Positions 2,982 through 35,722 of a DNA stretch of 35,722 nt are shown in pieces (position 1 is the stretch's first letter; every line of letters starts with the position of its first letter). The DNA is from a virus: IMG/VR virus record IMGVR_UViG_3300028025_001086, positions 1-35,722 of that record; one strand, 5' to 3'. Both the position numbers and the translations under genes were made by a program. The notes under the pieces are model-generated. The model was not told the DNA's origin. It did no database searches and saw nothing but the letters and a program-made list of their open reading frames with translations.

Positions 2982-3237
2982 TGTTAAATTGCTTTAGTTT
3001 TTGGAGAACTGTTATCCTACTTTCATCATCATATCCAGACTTTTTGAAACCACCCTTACCTGCTCTATCTTTAAAGCCAAATTGATCACAGTTTCCTGCA
3101 CCATGAAATCTACATTTAAAAATATTTTTTCCAGACTTATCAAACTTACCTGTTGGATAACCTTTAGCAAGACATGGCTTACCACTATGCTTAGACACAC
3201 CCATACAAAATATCTTTCGGCTTGGTCTTCCTCCCAT
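2788..3237 (-). CDS. HGG-type small protein next to small terminase (149 aa)
   Basis: The N-terminal half carries a cysteine/histidine pattern (MGGRPSRKIFCMG, KPCLAKGYPTGK, then CRFHGAGN at about residues 42-49) like that of phage proteins often found beside small terminases. The pattern could bind zinc. The C-terminal 60 or so residues lie in the 194-nt overlap with the small terminase gene and are basic and helical. It shares its first base with the stop of the upstream replication gene. Role unknown; association with packaging is inference from neighbourhood. Confidence 0.6.
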   Translation of the reverse strand: MGGRPSRKIFCMGVSKHSGKPCLAKGYPTGKFDKSGKNIFKCRFHGAGNCDQFGFKDRAGKGGFKKSGYDDESRITVLQKLKQFNNDRNKAEQYYYGTIKPKLIEQSYTSRYIHRANLRRSSGIRAIKAKQYLSDQLDVILQSVKKARE

Positions 3238-3995
3238 TAAAATTTATTCTTCTTCATCTCCCATGGCTTGATACCATTAGCCTTGTTATACTTTACACGA
3301 GCAACGTACCTTTCACTTCTCTGCTTACCATTGGATTGAAGAGCTTCTGTTATCTTTTGTTTAGCAACAACTTCAGGCAGTAAATTTTTTTGGCGTAGCT
3401 CTTGCTGTTTATAATCCAACACTAACTTCATATACCATTTATAAGTTGGGTTATTTAATAGATTGTTAGTATCGGCAGGGGATAGACCATTTAGAAACCT
3501 ATACAATGTACTAATCAATACATCTTTATCGTTCTTATACTTGTTTATTATATCATCTACTCTTTTATCATTATCCATTTTATTATTAGAATTATTTCTA
3601 TTAAGATATATATTAAAGTTATCTTTATTAATACCAGTCAGCCTGACTGCACCAATCAGTCCCCCTGACGTATCACTCATGTCCCCCTGACTGCTACCTA
3701 CCATTAAAACAGGGTTAAGTTTATATAAATTAGTAGAAGAAAGACGCTTCTTTTTTAGCAATCCAAGCGACACCATTAATTTAATTCTTCGGTAAATTGT
3801 AGCCTTAGATATTCCAAGAAGGCTGTGCATAAGAGCAAGACGTGGGTAGCACTCGCCAGTCTTCTGATTTGAGTACCTTAAAAGCACAACAAGTATCGCT
3901 AGGCAATCGGCTTTATTCCTACCTGCCAAGCCTAAGAATATATCGTTTTTAAATAGACTTACAGGCACTCGTATATGACTTGTGTATTTTGCCAT
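3237..3995 (-). CDS. Winged-helix replication-initiator-like protein (252 aa)
   Basis: Residues about 20-95 look like a winged helix-turn-helix: GECYPRLALMHSLLGISKAT followed by the recognition helix IYRRIKLMVSLGLLKKKRL, as in the HTH_36 family of plasmid and phage replication proteins. A low-complexity linker (NRNNSNNKMDN) separates it from a helical C-terminal part that may recruit host helicase or loader, as lambda O and DnaD-like proteins do. It overlaps the upstream gene by one base. It could instead be a transcription regulator. Confidence 0.55.
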   Translation of the reverse strand: MAKYTSHIRVPVSLFKNDIFLGLAGRNKADCLAILVVLLRYSNQKTGECYPRLALMHSLLGISKATIYRRIKLMVSLGLLKKKRLSSTNLYKLNPVLMVGSSQGDMSDTSGGLIGAVRLTGINKDNFNIYLNRNNSNNKMDNDKRVDDIINKYKNDKDVLISTLYRFLNGLSPADTNNLLNNPTYKWYMKLVLDYKQQELRQKNLLPEVVAKQKITEALQSNGKQRSERYVARVKYNKANGIKPWEMKKNKF

Positions 3996-4420: not shown

Positions 4421-5071
4421 TTAATTTTTAATCTTATAATAAAAACTATCGTCATCTGATGTACTCCAACTATCTGTTTCAACACTTGGATAATCCATAT
4501 TAGTTTTATAATCTGGTATCTGATCTTTAACTGTAAAGTTAGGTAAATTAAATAGTATTTTATTGTTTGGCATGAGTGCATAATTACCTTGCCACTTATC
4601 CCCTTTGTTTAATTCTAATATATGATGATGCTTATGTTCAGCACTTACTTCACTATAAGTTATGTTTAATAAGTTCATATCAGGTTGAGCATAGTCAATA
4701 CTAAATATGTAATTAGCTCTGTGTAATTTATTATTACGATCAATAAACTTACACTGTGCTGTGGCTAGAGCATTATACTCAATAACATTAGCGTAATAAG
4801 ATAAGCAATCCCAATACACAGTTTGTTTTAATTCTAAATCAACTACATCTTTTCTATTGTATTGATCAGAAAAAAAAGCTGTGATTGGTAGCCTTGCATA
4901 GTTAGCACCATTTGGCAGCATGATATTAAACAATGGTGTTCTTCCTTCTAAGGTAGTTATACTATGGATAAGACATACCTCTTCTTCTCCAATATGTTTT
5001 TCTTTATTGTATAAATATTCTAATCTAACTTTGGCTTTCCATACTGGAATGTTATGATTAAGAAATGACAT
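4421..5071 (-). CDS. Hypothetical protein (216 aa)
   Basis: Third-largest product of the leftward early operon. It has no signal peptide or membrane segment. It looks beta-rich, with a basic histidine cluster (HKHHHILEL) near residue 147 and an acidic serine-rich tail (SWSTSDDDSFYY). Its start overlaps the end of the 49-residue coiled-coil gene by 14 bases, so the two are co-translated. I recognise no family. Confidence 0.65.
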   Translation of the reverse strand: MSFLNHNIPVWKAKVRLEYLYNKEKHIGEEEVCLIHSITTLEGRTPLFNIMLPNGANYARLPITAFFSDQYNRKDVVDLELKQTVYWDCLSYYANVIEYNALATAQCKFIDRNNKLHRANYIFSIDYAQPDMNLLNITYSEVSAEHKHHHILELNKGDKWQGNYALMPNNKILFNLPNFTVKDQIPDYKTNMDYPSVETDSWSTSDDDSFYYKIKN

Positions 5072-5876: not shown

Positions 5877-6830
5877 ATGGTTATTGATTTAACAAAGAAC
5901 AATTCTACAGCAGCACTAAATAATTTTGATCCTGATATTTGTATTAAGTATTATGAAAAACTTAATCTTGATCATGGATCTCCAAGTCAGACAGCACAGT
6001 CAAATGCAGATTGGTTGGTAAACTACTGTTGGTTTGATCAAACTGACAGGCGGAACAAAAACATATCGTTCCGAATGAATGCTGGCGTATCTATCGGCAG
6101 AGCATCACAAAAATATGTTTCTAAATATATGTATGAAGCAGAAAAGAAAATGCTCATTGAGAAAAAAAATATAGATACTATCATCAAAGAAGAAATTGCC
6201 GAATACGACAAGTATCAACCTCATAATGAATTAGATAAAGAACAGCACGAAGATACAAAAAATTATCTTATGGATATGATTAAGATTACTTGCAAAGCAT
6301 TAGATGATCTTAAACTTGGAGATGAAGTAGCAAGTGAAAGATACTGCACGCATAAATTTAAAGAATTAGTTTTAGATAAGATTGGCAGAATAGATTACGA
6401 ACAAATGAATGGAACTAAACTTGTAGAGTTAAAGACCAAGCATAGATCAAAAAGAAAGTCAGATACTAAAGCAGGGTTTAGTTGGATCAAAGCATACTTA
6501 CCAAAACAACCAGATATAAATCATGTACGCCAGTGTGCTTTCTATTGGTATGCTACAAAAAAAATCCCTCACTTACTTTATGTTAATCAAGATAACTTTA
6601 ATGTGTTTACTCCTGACACTTGTGATTTGCTTACGCCTGAGTATATGGAATTTTTAATTCAACAAGATTTATTAGTTGATAAAATTCGTCAGAACATTGT
6701 GTACTTATGTCGTGGCTCGGCAAAAGATATGAGTAAATTAATTCCTCCACCAGACTTTTCAAGTTATATTTGGCGAGATGTACAGCCAGAGCTAATAAAA
6801 AAAGCAGCTAGCCTCTGGGACAATGTGTAG
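5877..6830 (+). CDS. PD-(D/E)XK exonuclease, YqaJ/Cas4-like (317 aa)
   Basis: The core is KIGRIDYE (D173) then KLVELKTKH (E185, K187), the D...E-x-K metal-binding set of the PD-(D/E)XK superfamily. HVRQCAFYWYAT (Q219, Y223) provides the Q-x-x-x-Y motif typical of RecB, Cas4 and lambda-exonuclease-like enzymes. About 170 helical residues precede it. It would resect double-stranded DNA ends to give single strands for the annealing protein encoded at 7273, forming a Red-type pair. First gene behind the rightward promoter; ribosome-binding site GAAAGG lies ten bases upstream. Confidence 0.8.
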   Translation: MVIDLTKNNSTAALNNFDPDICIKYYEKLNLDHGSPSQTAQSNADWLVNYCWFDQTDRRNKNISFRMNAGVSIGRASQKYVSKYMYEAEKKMLIEKKNIDTIIKEEIAEYDKYQPHNELDKEQHEDTKNYLMDMIKITCKALDDLKLGDEVASERYCTHKFKELVLDKIGRIDYEQMNGTKLVELKTKHRSKRKSDTKAGFSWIKAYLPKQPDINHVRQCAFYWYATKKIPHLLYVNQDNFNVFTPDTCDLLTPEYMEFLIQQDLLVDKIRQNIVYLCRGSAKDMSKLIPPPDFSSYIWRDVQPELIKKAASLWDNV

Positions 6831-6834
6831 AATC

Positions 6835-7005
6835 ATGGATATAAATTTTTATAAAAAAACTCATTATAAGATTATGGAAAGTTATAGGCATGATATTATG
6901 ATGCGTAAAATTAAAGAGAGAGAAGATAAAGAATTTAGAAAATTATTTATAAAAATATCTTCAATTATAATTGCAATCGTACTGTTAGTAACAGTAGTAT
7001 TTTAA
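6835..7005 (+). CDS. Small C-tail-anchored membrane protein (56 aa)
   Basis: The C-terminal 20 residues (IKISSIIIAIVLLVTVV) form a hydrophobic membrane segment behind a strongly charged helical cytoplasmic part (MMRKIKEREDKEFRK). The ATG at 6835 avoids overlap with the exonuclease; an in-frame ATG at 6823 would add four residues with an eight-base overlap. Neither has a clear ribosome-binding site. Function unknown. Confidence 0.55.
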   Translation: MDINFYKKTHYKIMESYRHDIMMRKIKEREDKEFRKLFIKISSIIIAIVLLVTVVF

Positions 7006-7008
7006 TAA

Positions 7009-7215
7009 ATGAAAGTAATTCTTACAATAATACTAATGAATGGCACAGTCTATAATTTAGGCTATGAAATTGATTCTTATTCTGCAAGAATATGTGATAA
7101 GTTATTTGATAAAGTAACTTACATAGGTAAGGCAAGTGGCAAGAATAAGTATGGTACTTTCTATAAAGGTAAGGAAGTATTTGCTCACTCTTGTTCATAC
7201 GAGAAAAAAGCATGA
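7009..7215 (+). CDS. Hypothetical protein (68 aa)
   Basis: Starts four bases after the preceding stop. The product begins MKVILTIILMNGTVYNLGY; the hydrophobic start is too short and broken to be a convincing signal peptide. The C-terminus reads FAHSCSYEKKA. No family recognised. A 12-base repeat, TGCTCACTCTTG, at 7183 recurs at 7229 just downstream. Confidence 0.6.
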   Translation: MKVILTIILMNGTVYNLGYEIDSYSARICDKLFDKVTYIGKASGKNKYGTFYKGKEVFAHSCSYEKKA

Positions 7216-7272
7216 TTGAGAAATACGAGTATGCTCACTCTTGCACAATAGATAAAACAACTAAAGGAAACA

Positions 7273-7878
7273 ATGAAAGAAAAAATAAAACAAGTTAATG
7301 ATTTGTGTGCAGCCAATGGCTCATACTTAAATCAACATGGAAAGAAAACAGTATCAGCTTGGAGTAAGATTAAATACTTTAGAGAATTGTTTGGTACTGA
7401 ATATGGAATAAATTGTGTAATACAAGAACACTCAGATCGTTATGTTATAATGAAATGTATTATAACTAAATCAGATCCTGAACATATTGTAGCAACTGGT
7501 TACTCAAAACAATACCGAGATAAACCAGGCTACTTAGAGATTGCTGAAACATTTGCAATCACACGAGCTTTATCATTCATGGGTATTCTTCTTGAAGATA
7601 TAACTTCAAAGGAAGAGTATGAGGAATTAGATATTCCAATACAGCCTATGAATGGAAAAGATACTACATCAAACAATATAAATTATGATGATAGTATAAT
7701 TAATGAACTGACGAAGAAGATAGCATTTGCTCATCACACAGCGAAACTAGATTTCCTTTGGAGAGCAAACAAAGATCTTCTTAATCAGATAAAAATAAAA
7801 GATCTCGCAACTTACAATTCTATCTTGCAAAGATTTAATAGTAAGCGTGATGAGATCACAACTCAAAATGAGGTATAA
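7273..7878 (+). CDS. Erf/Rad52-like ssDNA-annealing protein (201 aa)
   Basis: The segment EIAETFAITRALSFMGI (residues 89-105), with TSKEEYEEL after it, matches the helix of Erf/Sak3/Rad52-like phage annealing proteins (usually E-T-x-A-x-x-R-A-L-x-x-x-G followed by a S-x-E-E motif). YSKQYRDKPGYL before it fits the preceding strand-turn. The C-terminal 70 residues are variable, as in the family. Together with the exonuclease at 5877 it makes a two-component recombinase used for replication-coupled repair or concatemer formation. AAAGGA precedes the start. Confidence 0.75.
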   Translation: MKEKIKQVNDLCAANGSYLNQHGKKTVSAWSKIKYFRELFGTEYGINCVIQEHSDRYVIMKCIITKSDPEHIVATGYSKQYRDKPGYLEIAETFAITRALSFMGILLEDITSKEEYEELDIPIQPMNGKDTTSNNINYDDSIINELTKKIAFAHHTAKLDFLWRANKDLLNQIKIKDLATYNSILQRFNSKRDEITTQNEV

Positions 7879-8623: not shown

Positions 8624-8823
8624 TGAAGGTTGTAAGATTAAAAAAGTGTGAATGTTATTTTACTTATGTAGAAGAATTTGACACAGCAGAACATGCCATT
8701 GATCCTGATAAACGAGGTTTGTTTATTAAAGTTAAGGTTGGAGCAATAAGAGTAAACTCAGTAAGTATAAGACAGAAAGAAGATAAATATGATGAACATA
8801 AAGCAGCTAAAGGAACAAATTAA
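8623..8823 (+). CDS. Hypothetical protein (66 aa)
   Basis: Translationally coupled to the preceding gene. The product starts MKVVRLKKCECYFTYVEEFD, looks mainly beta in the first two thirds, and ends in a charged helix. Its last 35 bases overlap the DnaA-domain gene. No family recognised. Confidence 0.6.
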   Translation: MKVVRLKKCECYFTYVEEFDTAEHAIDPDKRGLFIKVKVGAIRVNSVSIRQKEDKYDEHKAAKGTN

Positions 8824-9298
8824 ATTAAGATACACTACTAATGTGTATGCAAACTTAACAGATAAAGAACGTAAACTTTATCGTTTAGGTTTTAAGACTG
8901 GATATAAATTAGCCAGAGAGTTTTTTAAAAAGCATGTTGTTACTAAACAGAATACAGTTTTTAAAGAAGTTGTTAAGTATGTAACAATCAATGATGTTGT
9001 AGTGCCTGAGAATGTAAAAGAAATGTTATCTATTGTTGCCAATCAACTTAGCATAGATGTTAATGAAATACTTACTAAGACTAGAATACAATCAGCTGTG
9101 ATTGCACGATCCATTTTAATTAATGTTCTTAGAGATAAGTACGCAATGCCATTTACAAAGATAGGTGTGCTACTTGGCAATCGTGATCATACAACTATGA
9201 TCCATCATGTTAGAATGAAAATGAATAAGGAACATTTCTGGAAACCAGATCATATTATCTGGAACAGATATAAATATGTGATGGATAATATTAAGTGA
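8789..9298 (+). CDS. Stand-alone DnaA domain IV protein (169 aa)
   Basis: Residues 73-145 match the DNA-binding domain IV of the bacterial initiator DnaA: an N-terminal helix, then QSAVIARSILINVLRDKY, IGVLLG and the signature NRDHTTMIHHVR (131-142), which in DnaA contacts the 9-mer DnaA box. No ATPase domain (Walker motifs) is present; residues 1-70 are a basic helical extension. It could recruit or titrate host DnaA at phage boxes, or act as a repressor. Candidate targets are the boxes at 12622-12679. The start may be 8789 or 8792 (tandem ATGs). It ends base-to-base against the convergent gene at 9299. Confidence 0.85.
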   Translation: MMNIKQLKEQIKLRYTTNVYANLTDKERKLYRLGFKTGYKLAREFFKKHVVTKQNTVFKEVVKYVTINDVVVPENVKEMLSIVANQLSIDVNEILTKTRIQSAVIARSILINVLRDKYAMPFTKIGVLLGNRDHTTMIHHVRMKMNKEHFWKPDHIIWNRYKYVMDNIK

Positions 9299-12376: not shown

Positions 12377-12604
12377 TTATTTAACGAACTTTAGAATAGA
12401 AAGAATAGAACCAACCAAAGCACCAACAATAATTAGGAAAGCTATAACGCCTTTGCCTTTGCTCATGTCAATTCTAAGATCTTTAACTTCAACTGTTAGA
12501 TCATCTAATCTCTTAATGATTGTATCCATTCTTTCTTTTGAATACTTCTCATAAGAAGATAATCTTATAGCTGTAGCAGATATAGGTTGCTTCTTTCTCT
12601 TCAT
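12377..12604 (-). CDS. XhlA-like membrane protein (75 aa)
   Basis: A helical region with MDTIIKRLDDLTVEVKDLRI is followed by one C-terminal membrane segment (GVIAFLIIVGALVGSILSIL), the layout of XhlA/hemolysin-type holin accessory proteins. It is the first gene behind the promoter at 12611-12638. The -10 element ends only six bases before this ATG, so the mRNA would be nearly leaderless; an internal ATG (residue 26, at 12529), preceded by AAGAAAG, is an alternative start. Confidence 0.6.
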   Translation of the reverse strand: MKRKKQPISATAIRLSSYEKYSKERMDTIIKRLDDLTVEVKDLRIDMSKGKGVIAFLIIVGALVGSILSILKFVK

Positions 12605-12610
12605 GCACTA

Positions 12611-12638
12611 CCTATAGTGGTTGTGGATAAAAAGTCAA
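12611..12638 (-). promoter_or_regulatory. Leftward promoter of the lysis operon
   Basis: Minus-strand TTGACT (12638-12633) and TATAGG (12616-12611) are 16 bp apart. A perfect DnaA box occupies 12622-12630 in the spacer, so binding of DnaA or of the phage DnaA-domain protein would block the promoter. It would allow lysis genes to be transcribed separately from the rest of the late genes. Confidence 0.55.
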
Positions 12639-12679
12639 TTATAAGATGTATGTGGATAGCTAGGTATTCACTATCCACA
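12622..12679. other. Cluster of three DnaA boxes, candidate origin
   Basis: TGTGGATAA at 12622-12630 is a perfect DnaA box (TTATCCACA) on the minus strand. TGTGGATAG at 12651-12659 and CTATCCACA at 12671-12679 are one-mismatch boxes forming a perfect nine-base inverted repeat. AT-rich DNA with direct repeats lies about 240 bp away. The phage encodes a DnaA domain IV protein. Origin function is inference. Confidence 0.55.
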
Positions 12680-12689
12680 CAGGTATTAT

Positions 12690-12851
12690 CTACTCTTCGT
12701 CAGAGTCTTCGTCTTCAAGATCTAGCTCATCCTCATCTAGATCTTCTTCTTCATCCCAATTATCTTCTGGGTTCAGTTTCAATTCCAAATCATCAAGGAG
12801 ATCTTTAATCTCATAGATGATGTCAGAAGCTGATTTTTGTTTCTTTGCCAT
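12690..12851 (-). CDS. Very acidic small protein (53 aa)
   Basis: Ribosome-binding site GGAG lies six bases before ATG. After a basic start (MAKKQKS) the product is helical and then almost all Asp/Glu (DEEEDLDEDELDLEDEDSDEE). Such DNA-mimic-like or chaperone-like tails occur in phage anti-host proteins and scaffolds; no function can be assigned. It lies between the DnaA-box cluster and the AT-rich repeats. Confidence 0.6.
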   Translation of the reverse strand: MAKKQKSASDIIYEIKDLLDDLELKLNPEDNWDEEEDLDEDELDLEDEDSDEE

Positions 12852-13116: not shown

Positions 13117-13224
13117 TTATATTTTCAATATGGCTTTGATAGATTCAATAGCTTTACTGATTTCATCTTTATAAGCGTAACCAATGAAACCTCCAGCTAT
13201 TAAACCAATAATAAGTGTAATCAT
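13117..13224 (-). CDS. Small membrane peptide (35 aa)
   Basis: ATG overlaps the TGA of the HNH gene (ATGA). Residues 2-17 (ITLIIGLIAGGFIGYA) form a glycine-rich membrane helix of the kind seen in YtxH-like or small phage membrane proteins, followed by a short charged helix. Function unknown. Confidence 0.5.
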   Translation of the reverse strand: MITLIIGLIAGGFIGYAYKDEISKAIESIKAILKI

Positions 13225-13841
13225 ATTATTAACTTGTTTGATTTAGAAAGATTAGCAGATGGTGTTAAGTATTGCAAGTTCCATTCTACATGTAATCCAC
13301 ATACTAATTTACTGTTCAAAGGAACTATGTGATCTACATGATAACCTTTGGGACAGTTCTTATAGATCTCTTTTATCTTTTCAAGATTAGCAAATTTAGG
13401 AGTAGCTCTTAATTTAGTTGCTCTTCTTTTAGCATCAAGTGCTTTTACTAAATGACGATTATTTAAAAGATATTGTTTTCTATATTCTTTATTTTTTAAA
13501 CGATATTCTTTTATCTTATCTTTATTATTTACACGATATTCTGCGTTATATTTTTTTGTCTTATCTTTATTTTTTAAACGATATTTTTTTATTTCATCTT
13601 TGTTATTTATATAATGTAATCTATTTAATTCGTTAAACTTTTCTTTATTTTTTAAATAATATAATTTGTTTTTTTCTTGTAATTTTTCTTTATTATTTAG
13701 ACGATATAATTTACTTAATTGGTTTATTCTATTTTTATTTTCTAAATAAAATATTCTACATCTTTCTTTTATTTTTTCTCTATTATTTAAATAATATTTT
13801 TTACTACTTGGTTTACGATCTTCTTTATTTTTATATGGCAT
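13221..13841 (-). CDS. HNH endonuclease with N-terminal charged repeats (206 aa)
   Basis: The C-terminal 50 residues hold an HNH domain: YHVDHIVPLNSKLVCGLHVE, then WNLQYLTPSANLSKSNK, with the H-D-H, N and N/K residues in place. Residues about 15-130 are built of near-repeats of 11-15 residues around Y-x-L-N/K-N-K-E/D-K, also visible in the DNA as AT-rich repeats. The repeats probably bind DNA. Such free-standing HNH genes are often mobile homing enzymes but can also help packaging; its position between tail and lysis genes fits a mobile gene. Confidence 0.8.
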   Translation of the reverse strand: MPYKNKEDRKPSSKKYYLNNREKIKERCRIFYLENKNRINQLSKLYRLNNKEKLQEKNKLYYLKNKEKFNELNRLHYINNKDEIKKYRLKNKDKTKKYNAEYRVNNKDKIKEYRLKNKEYRKQYLLNNRHLVKALDAKRRATKLRATPKFANLEKIKEIYKNCPKGYHVDHIVPLNSKLVCGLHVEWNLQYLTPSANLSKSNKLII

Positions 13842-33314: not shown

Positions 33315-33536
33315 TTATCCTAATAAAGTTGGTGTGCCTAAAGTTGCACCTTCTGAAAGACCAGCTGATCCTGTAAGTATCGTTGGAGATCTGCCACGTC
33401 TTCTTCTTCTAATTCCTTTTGCATCCATATCAGTTGCTGTAGCTTGAGATACTTCTGCAGTAGTTGGTGCAGTAGCTACAGGTTGTGGTGCAGGAGCAGA
33501 TGGAGAGTTAAAAGGATTTGGAATTGGACCACCCAT
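33315..33536 (-). CDS. Small proline-rich virion-cassette protein, paralogue 1 (73 aa)
   Basis: Disordered proline/alanine-rich N-terminus, then GIRRRRRGRSPTILTG and a C-terminal TLGTPTLLG. The basic R/K-G-R-x-x-TILT core and the TLLG end are shared with the next gene at 33538, so the two look like tandem paralogues. Position between terminase and portal, and basic disordered character, recall small T7 virion proteins such as gp6.7/gp7.3; that link is inference. Confidence 0.65.
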   Translation of the reverse strand: MGGPIPNPFNSPSAPAPQPVATAPTTAEVSQATATDMDAKGIRRRRRGRSPTILTGSAGLSEGATLGTPTLLG

Positions 33537-33537
33537 A

Positions 33538-33750
33538 TTACATTCCTAATAAAGTTTTTTTCTCTGTCGTTGCTTCTTCAACTAATGGAGATGTTAATAT
33601 TGTACTTGCTCTACCTTTACGTCTTCTTTCAATTGCGTCTTGTTCAGATTTAATTCTTGCCTGTTCTTCTTCTGACAATTTAGTAGAAGGCGGTTCTGGC
33701 AATGGTTGCACTGGTGGCAACGATGGCATTTTCGGCGATAAGAATCCCAT
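33538..33750 (-). CDS. Small proline-rich virion-cassette protein, paralogue 2 (70 aa)
   Basis: Proline-rich N-terminus (MGFLSPKMPSLPPVQPLPEP), a charged helix (LSEEEQARIKSEQDAIERRR), then KGRASTILTS and the end KKTLLGM. The core and end match paralogue 1. The two ATGs and stops are two bases apart. Role unknown, probably virion-associated. Confidence 0.65.
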   Translation of the reverse strand: MGFLSPKMPSLPPVQPLPEPPSTKLSEEEQARIKSEQDAIERRRKGRASTILTSPLVEEATTEKKTLLGM

Positions 33751-35143: not shown

Positions 35144-35361
35144 TAGTGAATAGCTTTAGATTGTTCATTGCTTATAATTGCATTCTCAATATTTAATAGC
35201 ATCATTAACCAAGAACTAAATATTGCTGAGTGTTCTTTGTTTTGTAATCCTGTGAACTTAACTGTTATTGAATTATCTTTCTCAATATAAACAACTGCTT
35301 TTACATTGGCTGTATAAAAGTCGTTATCGTCATCATCATCTTGGTACATTGATCTGTTCAT
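35143..35361 (-). CDS. Hypothetical acidic protein upstream of terL (72 aa)
   Basis: First gene of the late transcript, sharing its last base with the terL start. An aspartate run (MYQDDDDDNDF) precedes a beta-looking segment (VKAVVYIEKDNSITVKF) and a hydrophobic helix (FSSWLMMLLNIENAII). It occupies the usual place of a small terminase subunit but shows no helix-turn-helix, and a better candidate lies at 2472. No clear ribosome-binding site. Confidence 0.6.
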   Translation of the reverse strand: MNRSMYQDDDDDNDFYTANVKAVVYIEKDNSITVKFTGLQNKEHSAIFSSWLMMLLNIENAIISNEQSKAIH

Positions 35362-35603
35362 ATACTATTAGTAGTATTTTAATATTATATTAAGGTTGGT
35401 CAGGCAAAGAAAAAAGGTGGTGGGTTGTTTGTGGATATACCCATTTGTGCGGCTGAGAATGTGGAAGGCTTTGAGGCTAAAGGTATCCTAATAAGTCCCA
35501 TATATATATATATAAAAAATGCGCGGCGGTTTATGGGGTGTATGGGGGGGTGGCTATCCAAAATATGACAAGCTCGTAGGAATAGATAATCTATTGTCGC
35601 ATT

Positions 35604-35629
35604 ATTCCGATAACGTTTAATTATCGGAA
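35604..35629. other. Nine-bp inverted repeat in control region
   Basis: TTCCGATAA and TTATCGGAA face each other around a seven-base loop. No T-run follows on either strand, so a regulatory or packaging site is more likely than a terminator. Confidence 0.45.
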
Positions 35630-35657
35630 ATGTATTATAGGTTGTATTGCTTATAAT

Positions 35658-35686
35658 AGTGTTGCATTAATATCACAGTGTTGCAT
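35658..35686. repeat. Direct repeat AGTGTTGCAT x2
   Basis: Two identical 10-mers at 35658-35667 and 35677-35686, offset by 19 bp (about two helical turns). Iteron-like or activator-site-like arrangement near the rightward early genes if the molecule is circular. Confidence 0.45.
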
Positions 35687-35722
35687 ATCCGCTACACATA
35701 ACACACGTTTTAATTGTGATTG

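Follow-up and report, generated by a model that had tools for sequence, protein, structure and literature searches.

Why would a phage keep the DNA-binding end of the bacterial initiator DnaA and leave out its ATPase? The question is raised by one gene in a virus record of 35,722 bases (IMGVR_UViG_3300028025_001086). We call the whole of this stretch the window. An earlier note on this DNA had read the open reading frame at 8789-9298 as a stand-alone DnaA domain IV without ATPase. It had also proposed that the protein might decoy, titrate or recruit host DnaA, or act as a repressor.

A DnaA domain IV without an ATPase

The gene and its parts are the following.

8789-9298, plus strand: DnaA-like gene, 169 amino acids, at the end of the early nuclease/annealing-protein operon (open reading frame and Bac_DnaA_C match)
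8789-9007, plus strand: N-terminal helical region of about 73 residues (low-confidence helices, without a recognised relative)
9008-9295, plus strand: DnaA domain IV, residues 74-169 (structure alignment with 1j1v, Foldseek)
9179-9214, plus strand: box-recognition helix NRDHTTMIHHVR, residues 131-142 (invariant residues among 64 relatives)

The Pfam profile Bac_DnaA_C matches residues 78-142 with 52 bits (E 7e-14), and its cut-off is 31.5 bits. It is likewise matched by all 60 of the 60 aligned relatives. The full-length DnaA models of NCBIfam align to the protein with their last part alone, far under their cut-off. Among solved structures, the closest sequence matches are DnaA from B. subtilis, E. 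coli and Aquifex.

An AlphaFold2 model, built on an alignment of 60 relatives, is confident at residues 74-169. Its N-terminal part is weak, with disorder at 50-66. In VIA-align, residues 74-169 fall on residues 374-466 of 1j1v, a structure of E. coli DnaA domain IV together with a DnaA box; the alignment covers 92 residues, with Z 10.2 and 2.6 Å. DnaA chains occupy places 1-6 of this ranking, and the next row has Z 4.7. The best 12 Foldseek matches are all DnaA. The identity of the domain is thus far beyond chance, and the check by structure prediction that the earlier note proposed has given a match.

A pattern search of the protein found no Walker A/B motif. Likewise, the Bac_DnaA AAA+ profile (PF00308) has zero matches across the 35.7-kb record. 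As modelled, the open reading frame is a complete DnaA domain IV behind a helical N-terminus, without an AAA+ ATPase, just as the earlier note had it. With dN/dS at 0.16-0.21, purifying selection acts on the gene.

The N-terminus is less clear. Helices are predicted at 4-15 and 25-48 with low confidence, and Y31, F35 and G38 are invariant. A profile comparison with full-length E. coli DnaA aligns just 376-464; the N-terminal model itself has low confidence. Matches of this region to TRAPP, CodY, NFACT and mitochondrial TFAM were rejected, being weak and varying from member to member. In the profile comparison, no part of the N-terminus aligns with DnaA domain I, and the recruitment of host DnaA finds no support.

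Residues that contact the DnaA box

Residues of the type R399, R407, D433, H434, T435 and T436 are the known DnaA-box contacts in 1j1v. The phage protein has their equivalents at R99, R107, D133, H134, T135 and T136. It also has H139 (E. coli H439) and an equivalent of R432. R99, R107, D133, H134, T135 and T136 are unchanged in 64 of 64 relatives, and H139 is kept in 62 of the 64. Only at P423 does a contact differ: the phage protein has T there, and the family T or S. For this reason, the "full" recognition signature claimed earlier for residues 131-142 was slightly overstated, although its other residues are in place. Given these contacts, the protein very likely recognises standard DnaA boxes, TTATNCACA.

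The fold and the box contacts are common to the phage protein and bacterial DnaA domain IV (E. coli 1j1v, M. tuberculosis 3pvp, B. subtilis 8btg). On the other hand, the phage protein lacks the AAA+ domain III, has T or S for P423 and has an N-terminus that seems unrelated. It also ends in a C-terminal tail with invariant W151 and W158. In one genome scan, the matches were mostly DnaA of Patescibacteria (about 31-43% across the domain). BFVD also has many short phage proteins named "DnaA C-terminal", from uncultured Caudovirales, which stand alone and share the C-terminal fold. However, their identity to the window protein is low (about 10-26%).

A core gene of HTVC010P-type phages

The gene order of the record is that of HTVC010P-type pelagiphages, and its phage is one of their freshwater relatives. 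HTVC010P-type phages, which infect SAR11 and encode no polymerase, are among the most abundant ocean viruses. The DnaA-like gene lies in the same place in 10 of the 10 cultured HTVC010P-type SAR11 phage genomes examined (the HTVC010P record is stored in the opposite orientation to the others). In these genomes and in the window, the nuclease and annealing-protein genes are followed by the DnaA-like gene and then by a strand switch.

5877-7878, plus strand: nuclease gene (5877-6830) and annealing-protein gene (7273-7878), from synteny with annotated cultured-phage genes and weak PHROG matches

At a coverage of at least 80%, 19 pelagiphage records match the DnaA-like protein, with E down to 2e-24. 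HTVC010P, HTVC034P, Skadi, Greip and others carry the same gene: it agrees in length and in its place in the operon, and has domain IV with the invariant contacts. The marine HTVC010P-type proteins are 28-36% identical to that of the window over most of the length. Freshwater proteins read GNRDHTT at the recognition loop, whereas the marine loop is one residue shorter, of GQDHTT type.

The gene is already known as a core gene of this group and was annotated before. Chen et al. 2019 listed "DnaA" in all HTVC010P-related genomes, including the freshwater ones (PMC6811365), and the freshwater phages are thought to infect Fonsibacter (PMC6811365). Most of the cultured genomes examined carry the label "DNA replication initiation (DnaA)" or "DnaA-like". 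As argued below, this label is probably misleading. Our literature search found no paper on the function of a stand-alone phage DnaA domain IV.

Phages of the Skadi type have neither a DNA nor an RNA polymerase (PMC10504331) and so need access to the host replisome. The DnaA-like protein is missing from HTVC019P and HTVC011P. These two phages infect the same host as the HTVC010P-type phages, and each brings a DNA polymerase and a primase of its own.

A candidate origin within an O-like gene

If the DnaA-like protein does not mark the phage origin, another gene might. The window has a candidate.

3237-3995, minus strand: O-like replication initiator with a winged helix, a disordered linker and a helical C-terminal domain (PHROG, HTH_36, model, Foldseek)
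3637-3691, minus strand: candidate origin iterons within the O-like gene, three 11-nt copies of GTCAGGSBGAC type at an exact spacing of 22 bp
3560-3635, no strand: AT-rich stretch adjoining the iterons, a candidate unwinding element (84% AT, against 68% in the whole window)

Most of the 34 O-like members match PHROG families of replication initiation, O-like or DnaD-like proteins. Direct matches to Pfam Phage_rep_O are weak and are found in 2 of the 34. The gene product matches HTH_36. In the model the linker is disordered at residues 100-139, and the iterons fall within it. For the winged helix, the top Foldseek match is 4pql (N-terminal domain of a DNA-binding protein); 4pt7, "Structure of initiator", is also found, among ArsR-type winged helices.

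Most relatives have repeats at the same place in the O-like gene, 21-22 bp apart and of quite different sequence. At this threshold, a few relatives of the HTVC203P type have none in this gene. Across 22 non-redundant O-like genes, the 22-bp signal stands at z 12.5 above synonymous-codon shuffles, and other spacings from 12 to 40 reach at most 3.5 standard deviations. A repeated peptide is ruled out as the cause, since 22 bp is not a whole number of codons.

The lambda origin, ori-lambda, has its iterons and an AT-rich tract within gene O (PMC7466680). The gene at 3237-3995 shares with it the winged-helix N-terminus, the mid-gene iterons and the adjoining AT-rich tract. However, the iteron sequences differ, and the P partner is not recognised in the phage; the scan of phage proteins recognised no P-like loader. 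In our analysis, the O-like gene with its intragenic iterons is likely the phage initiator and putative origin, of lambda-like design. Cultured phages carry this gene under the label "putative transcriptional regulator". In HTVC010P-type phages, that regulator looks like a lambda O-type initiator. We found no paper that connects iterons with HTVC010P.

The gene at 4421-5071 (minus strand), upstream of the O-like gene, has a strong PHROG match (phrog_3704, "ferredoxin", E 3e-49).

The two modules are exchanged independently. In one relative (L009), identity to the window is 97% for the DnaA-like protein but only 40% for the O-like protein, and the iterons are other ones. A further one (L010) has 95% and 44%. 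Conversely, in L024 the DnaA-like protein is 79% identical and the O-like protein 98%, with the same iterons. By these sequence comparisons, the O/iteron module is swapped independently of the DnaA-like gene. This exchange, together with contact residues that stay fixed as iterons change, argues that the DnaA-like protein is not the reader of the phage origin.

With codon use controlled, none of 11 phage genomes has an excess or a cluster of DnaA boxes. Box-like sites appeared depleted genome-wide against dinucleotide shuffles in 11 of 11. This depletion vanishes under synonymous-codon shuffles and is a coding artefact. A site TTATGCACA at 3824, in the O-like gene, was also set aside, as it is in a coding position and is seen in the same iteron class only. 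Hence, the DnaA-like protein is probably not what defines the phage origin.

DnaA boxes before the lysis region

The window has four YTATCCACA sites, and 0.6 are expected. A single hairpin accounts for two of them, as its arms; a third is within coding sequence, and the last is at 12622-12630.

12605-12638, minus strand: promoter-like element TTGACT-N16-TATAGG (direct reading and conservation in freshwater relatives)
12622-12630, minus strand: exact DnaA box TTATCCACA in the spacer of this element

The element lies directly before the lysis-region gene 12377-12604. Freshwater relatives often have this box, equally far from the start codon. Many of them have an extra gene, preceded by a second and unlike element, TTTACTTATCCACA. 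Of the upstream regions compared (37 non-redundant ones, seven of which are marine), 24 contain exact TTATCCACA, in two unlike contexts and one orientation only. The core TATCCACA is kept in 20 of 20 freshwater loci with the extra gene, and its flanks drift. Variants at the first element, TTATACACA and TTATGCACA, differ at the degenerate N of TTATNCACA. A consensus promoter scanner gave no score for either element, so both promoters are proposals from conservation by eye. Their boxes could be read by host DnaA or by the phage protein.

The marine HTVC010P-type members have no boxes at their lysis-region promoters. Therefore, these boxes cannot account for the core status of the DnaA-like gene.

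Two other candidates were rejected. Three boxes within 58 bp (12622-12679) resemble an oriC-like cluster. However, two of them are arms of one hairpin (TGTGGATAG / CTATCCACA), so just the 12622 site is counted. The hairpin, at 12640-12690, includes these two box-like sequences by chance. Since the hairpins that relatives have at this position differ in sequence, a terminator-like structure is probable here, and not a pair of boxes. The other candidate lay upstream of the terminase operon, where a box seemed conserved. Exact TTATNCACA is present there in about a dozen marine loci, yet the homologous position has no box in the freshwater clade or in many marine phages. In an anagram control, 16 of 400 anagrams were equally good, which makes this signal weak.

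Possible functions of the DnaA-like protein

Taken together, these results suggest that the DnaA-like protein is a competitor at DnaA sites or a regulator of them, and not the starter of phage replication. We give a probability of about one half to a protein that binds DnaA boxes as a competitor and regulator. Its targets would be DnaA sites of the host and, in the freshwater clade, also the promoters of the phage's lysis region. The simplest account to cover all members is that it competes with host DnaA for boxes, and we hold this at about the same even odds. The DNA binding, the host target and the direction of regulation are inferred.

The protein would occupy DnaA boxes. Having no AAA+ domain, it should be unable to form an ATP-DnaA filament or to melt an origin. 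On the host chromosome it would presumably contend with host DnaA at oriC and related sites. Host initiation would then be lowered, and DnaB helicase and polymerase III would be freed for a phage without a polymerase. In the freshwater clade, the DnaA-like protein, or the host DnaA that competes with it, would act on the boxes in the two lysis-region promoter-like elements. The evidence is compatible with the decoy, competitor or repressor roles suggested earlier, and the conserved freshwater promoter boxes give indirect support to the repressor or regulator part. That the protein seizes control of host replication is plausible. The N-terminal region could bring in a partner that alters this picture.

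A possible, though rather doubtful, reading is a dedicated transcription regulator of the phage: a late or lysis switch on its promoter boxes, with no role at host oriC. In its favour, freshwater relatives have exact boxes whose position is fixed within both of the unlike promoter-like elements ahead of the lysis region. Full-length DnaA is itself known as a transcription factor, and in lambda pR is stimulated by host DnaA (PMC7466680). However, marine members have no boxes at the lysis region, the box upstream of TerL in some marine phages is not conserved, and only one of the four exact TTATNCACA sites in the window lies within a promoter-like element. The annotated role, an initiator that binds the phage origin and brings in host replication proteins, appears unlikely. 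It agrees with the database label, with the gene's place at the end of a recombination/replication operon and with phages that have no DNA polymerase (PMC10504331). Nevertheless, 11 genomes have no DnaA-box cluster, the O-like gene holds a better origin candidate, the two modules exchange independently and the protein has no AAA+ domain.

That no P-like loader was recognised among the scanned proteins leaves room for an accessory helicase loader. In the place of lambda P, the protein would be tethered to DNA by domain IV and would bring host DnaB to the O-like/iteron origin by its N-terminus. The conserved N-terminus, with its three invariant residues, fits this role. However, no box is consistently near the iterons (TTATGCACA at 3824 is limited to the same iteron class), profile comparison finds no likeness between the N-terminus and DnaA domain I, and the O module is exchanged independently of the DnaA-like gene. 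We consider this role very improbable. By likelihood, box competition is thus followed by the phage-promoter regulator, then by the annotated initiator and then by the helicase-loader accessory. We add a more speculative and quite unlikely extension of box competition. The phage protein and host DnaA might compete both at host oriC and at the lysis-region promoter as a timing device, which would tie host shut-down and lysis onset to the number of boxes that replication makes.

Two things that annotation had merged can now be separated. The O-like gene with its iterons is the likely origin and initiator, and "DnaA" would be a box-binding protein without a motor. This corrects the view of where HTVC010P-type phages probably start replication.

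Other features of the record

The region upstream of TerL (35361-35722 and 1-155; L250-L329 upstream of TerL) is divergent, with the blocks CATGGGACT... and TATATATATA common to freshwater and marine phages. The freshwater clade has GGGTATATCCACAAACAACCC in this region. The conserved blocks are possibly a packaging site or a promoter.

Between terminase and portal, two adjacent small genes (33315-33536 and 33538-33750, minus strand) look like a tandem duplication, with the shared endings RRR-GR--TIL and TLLG. Finally, the gene at 13221-13841 (minus strand) has a long run of YRLNNKEK-type repeat units, followed by an HNH-nuclease-like end.
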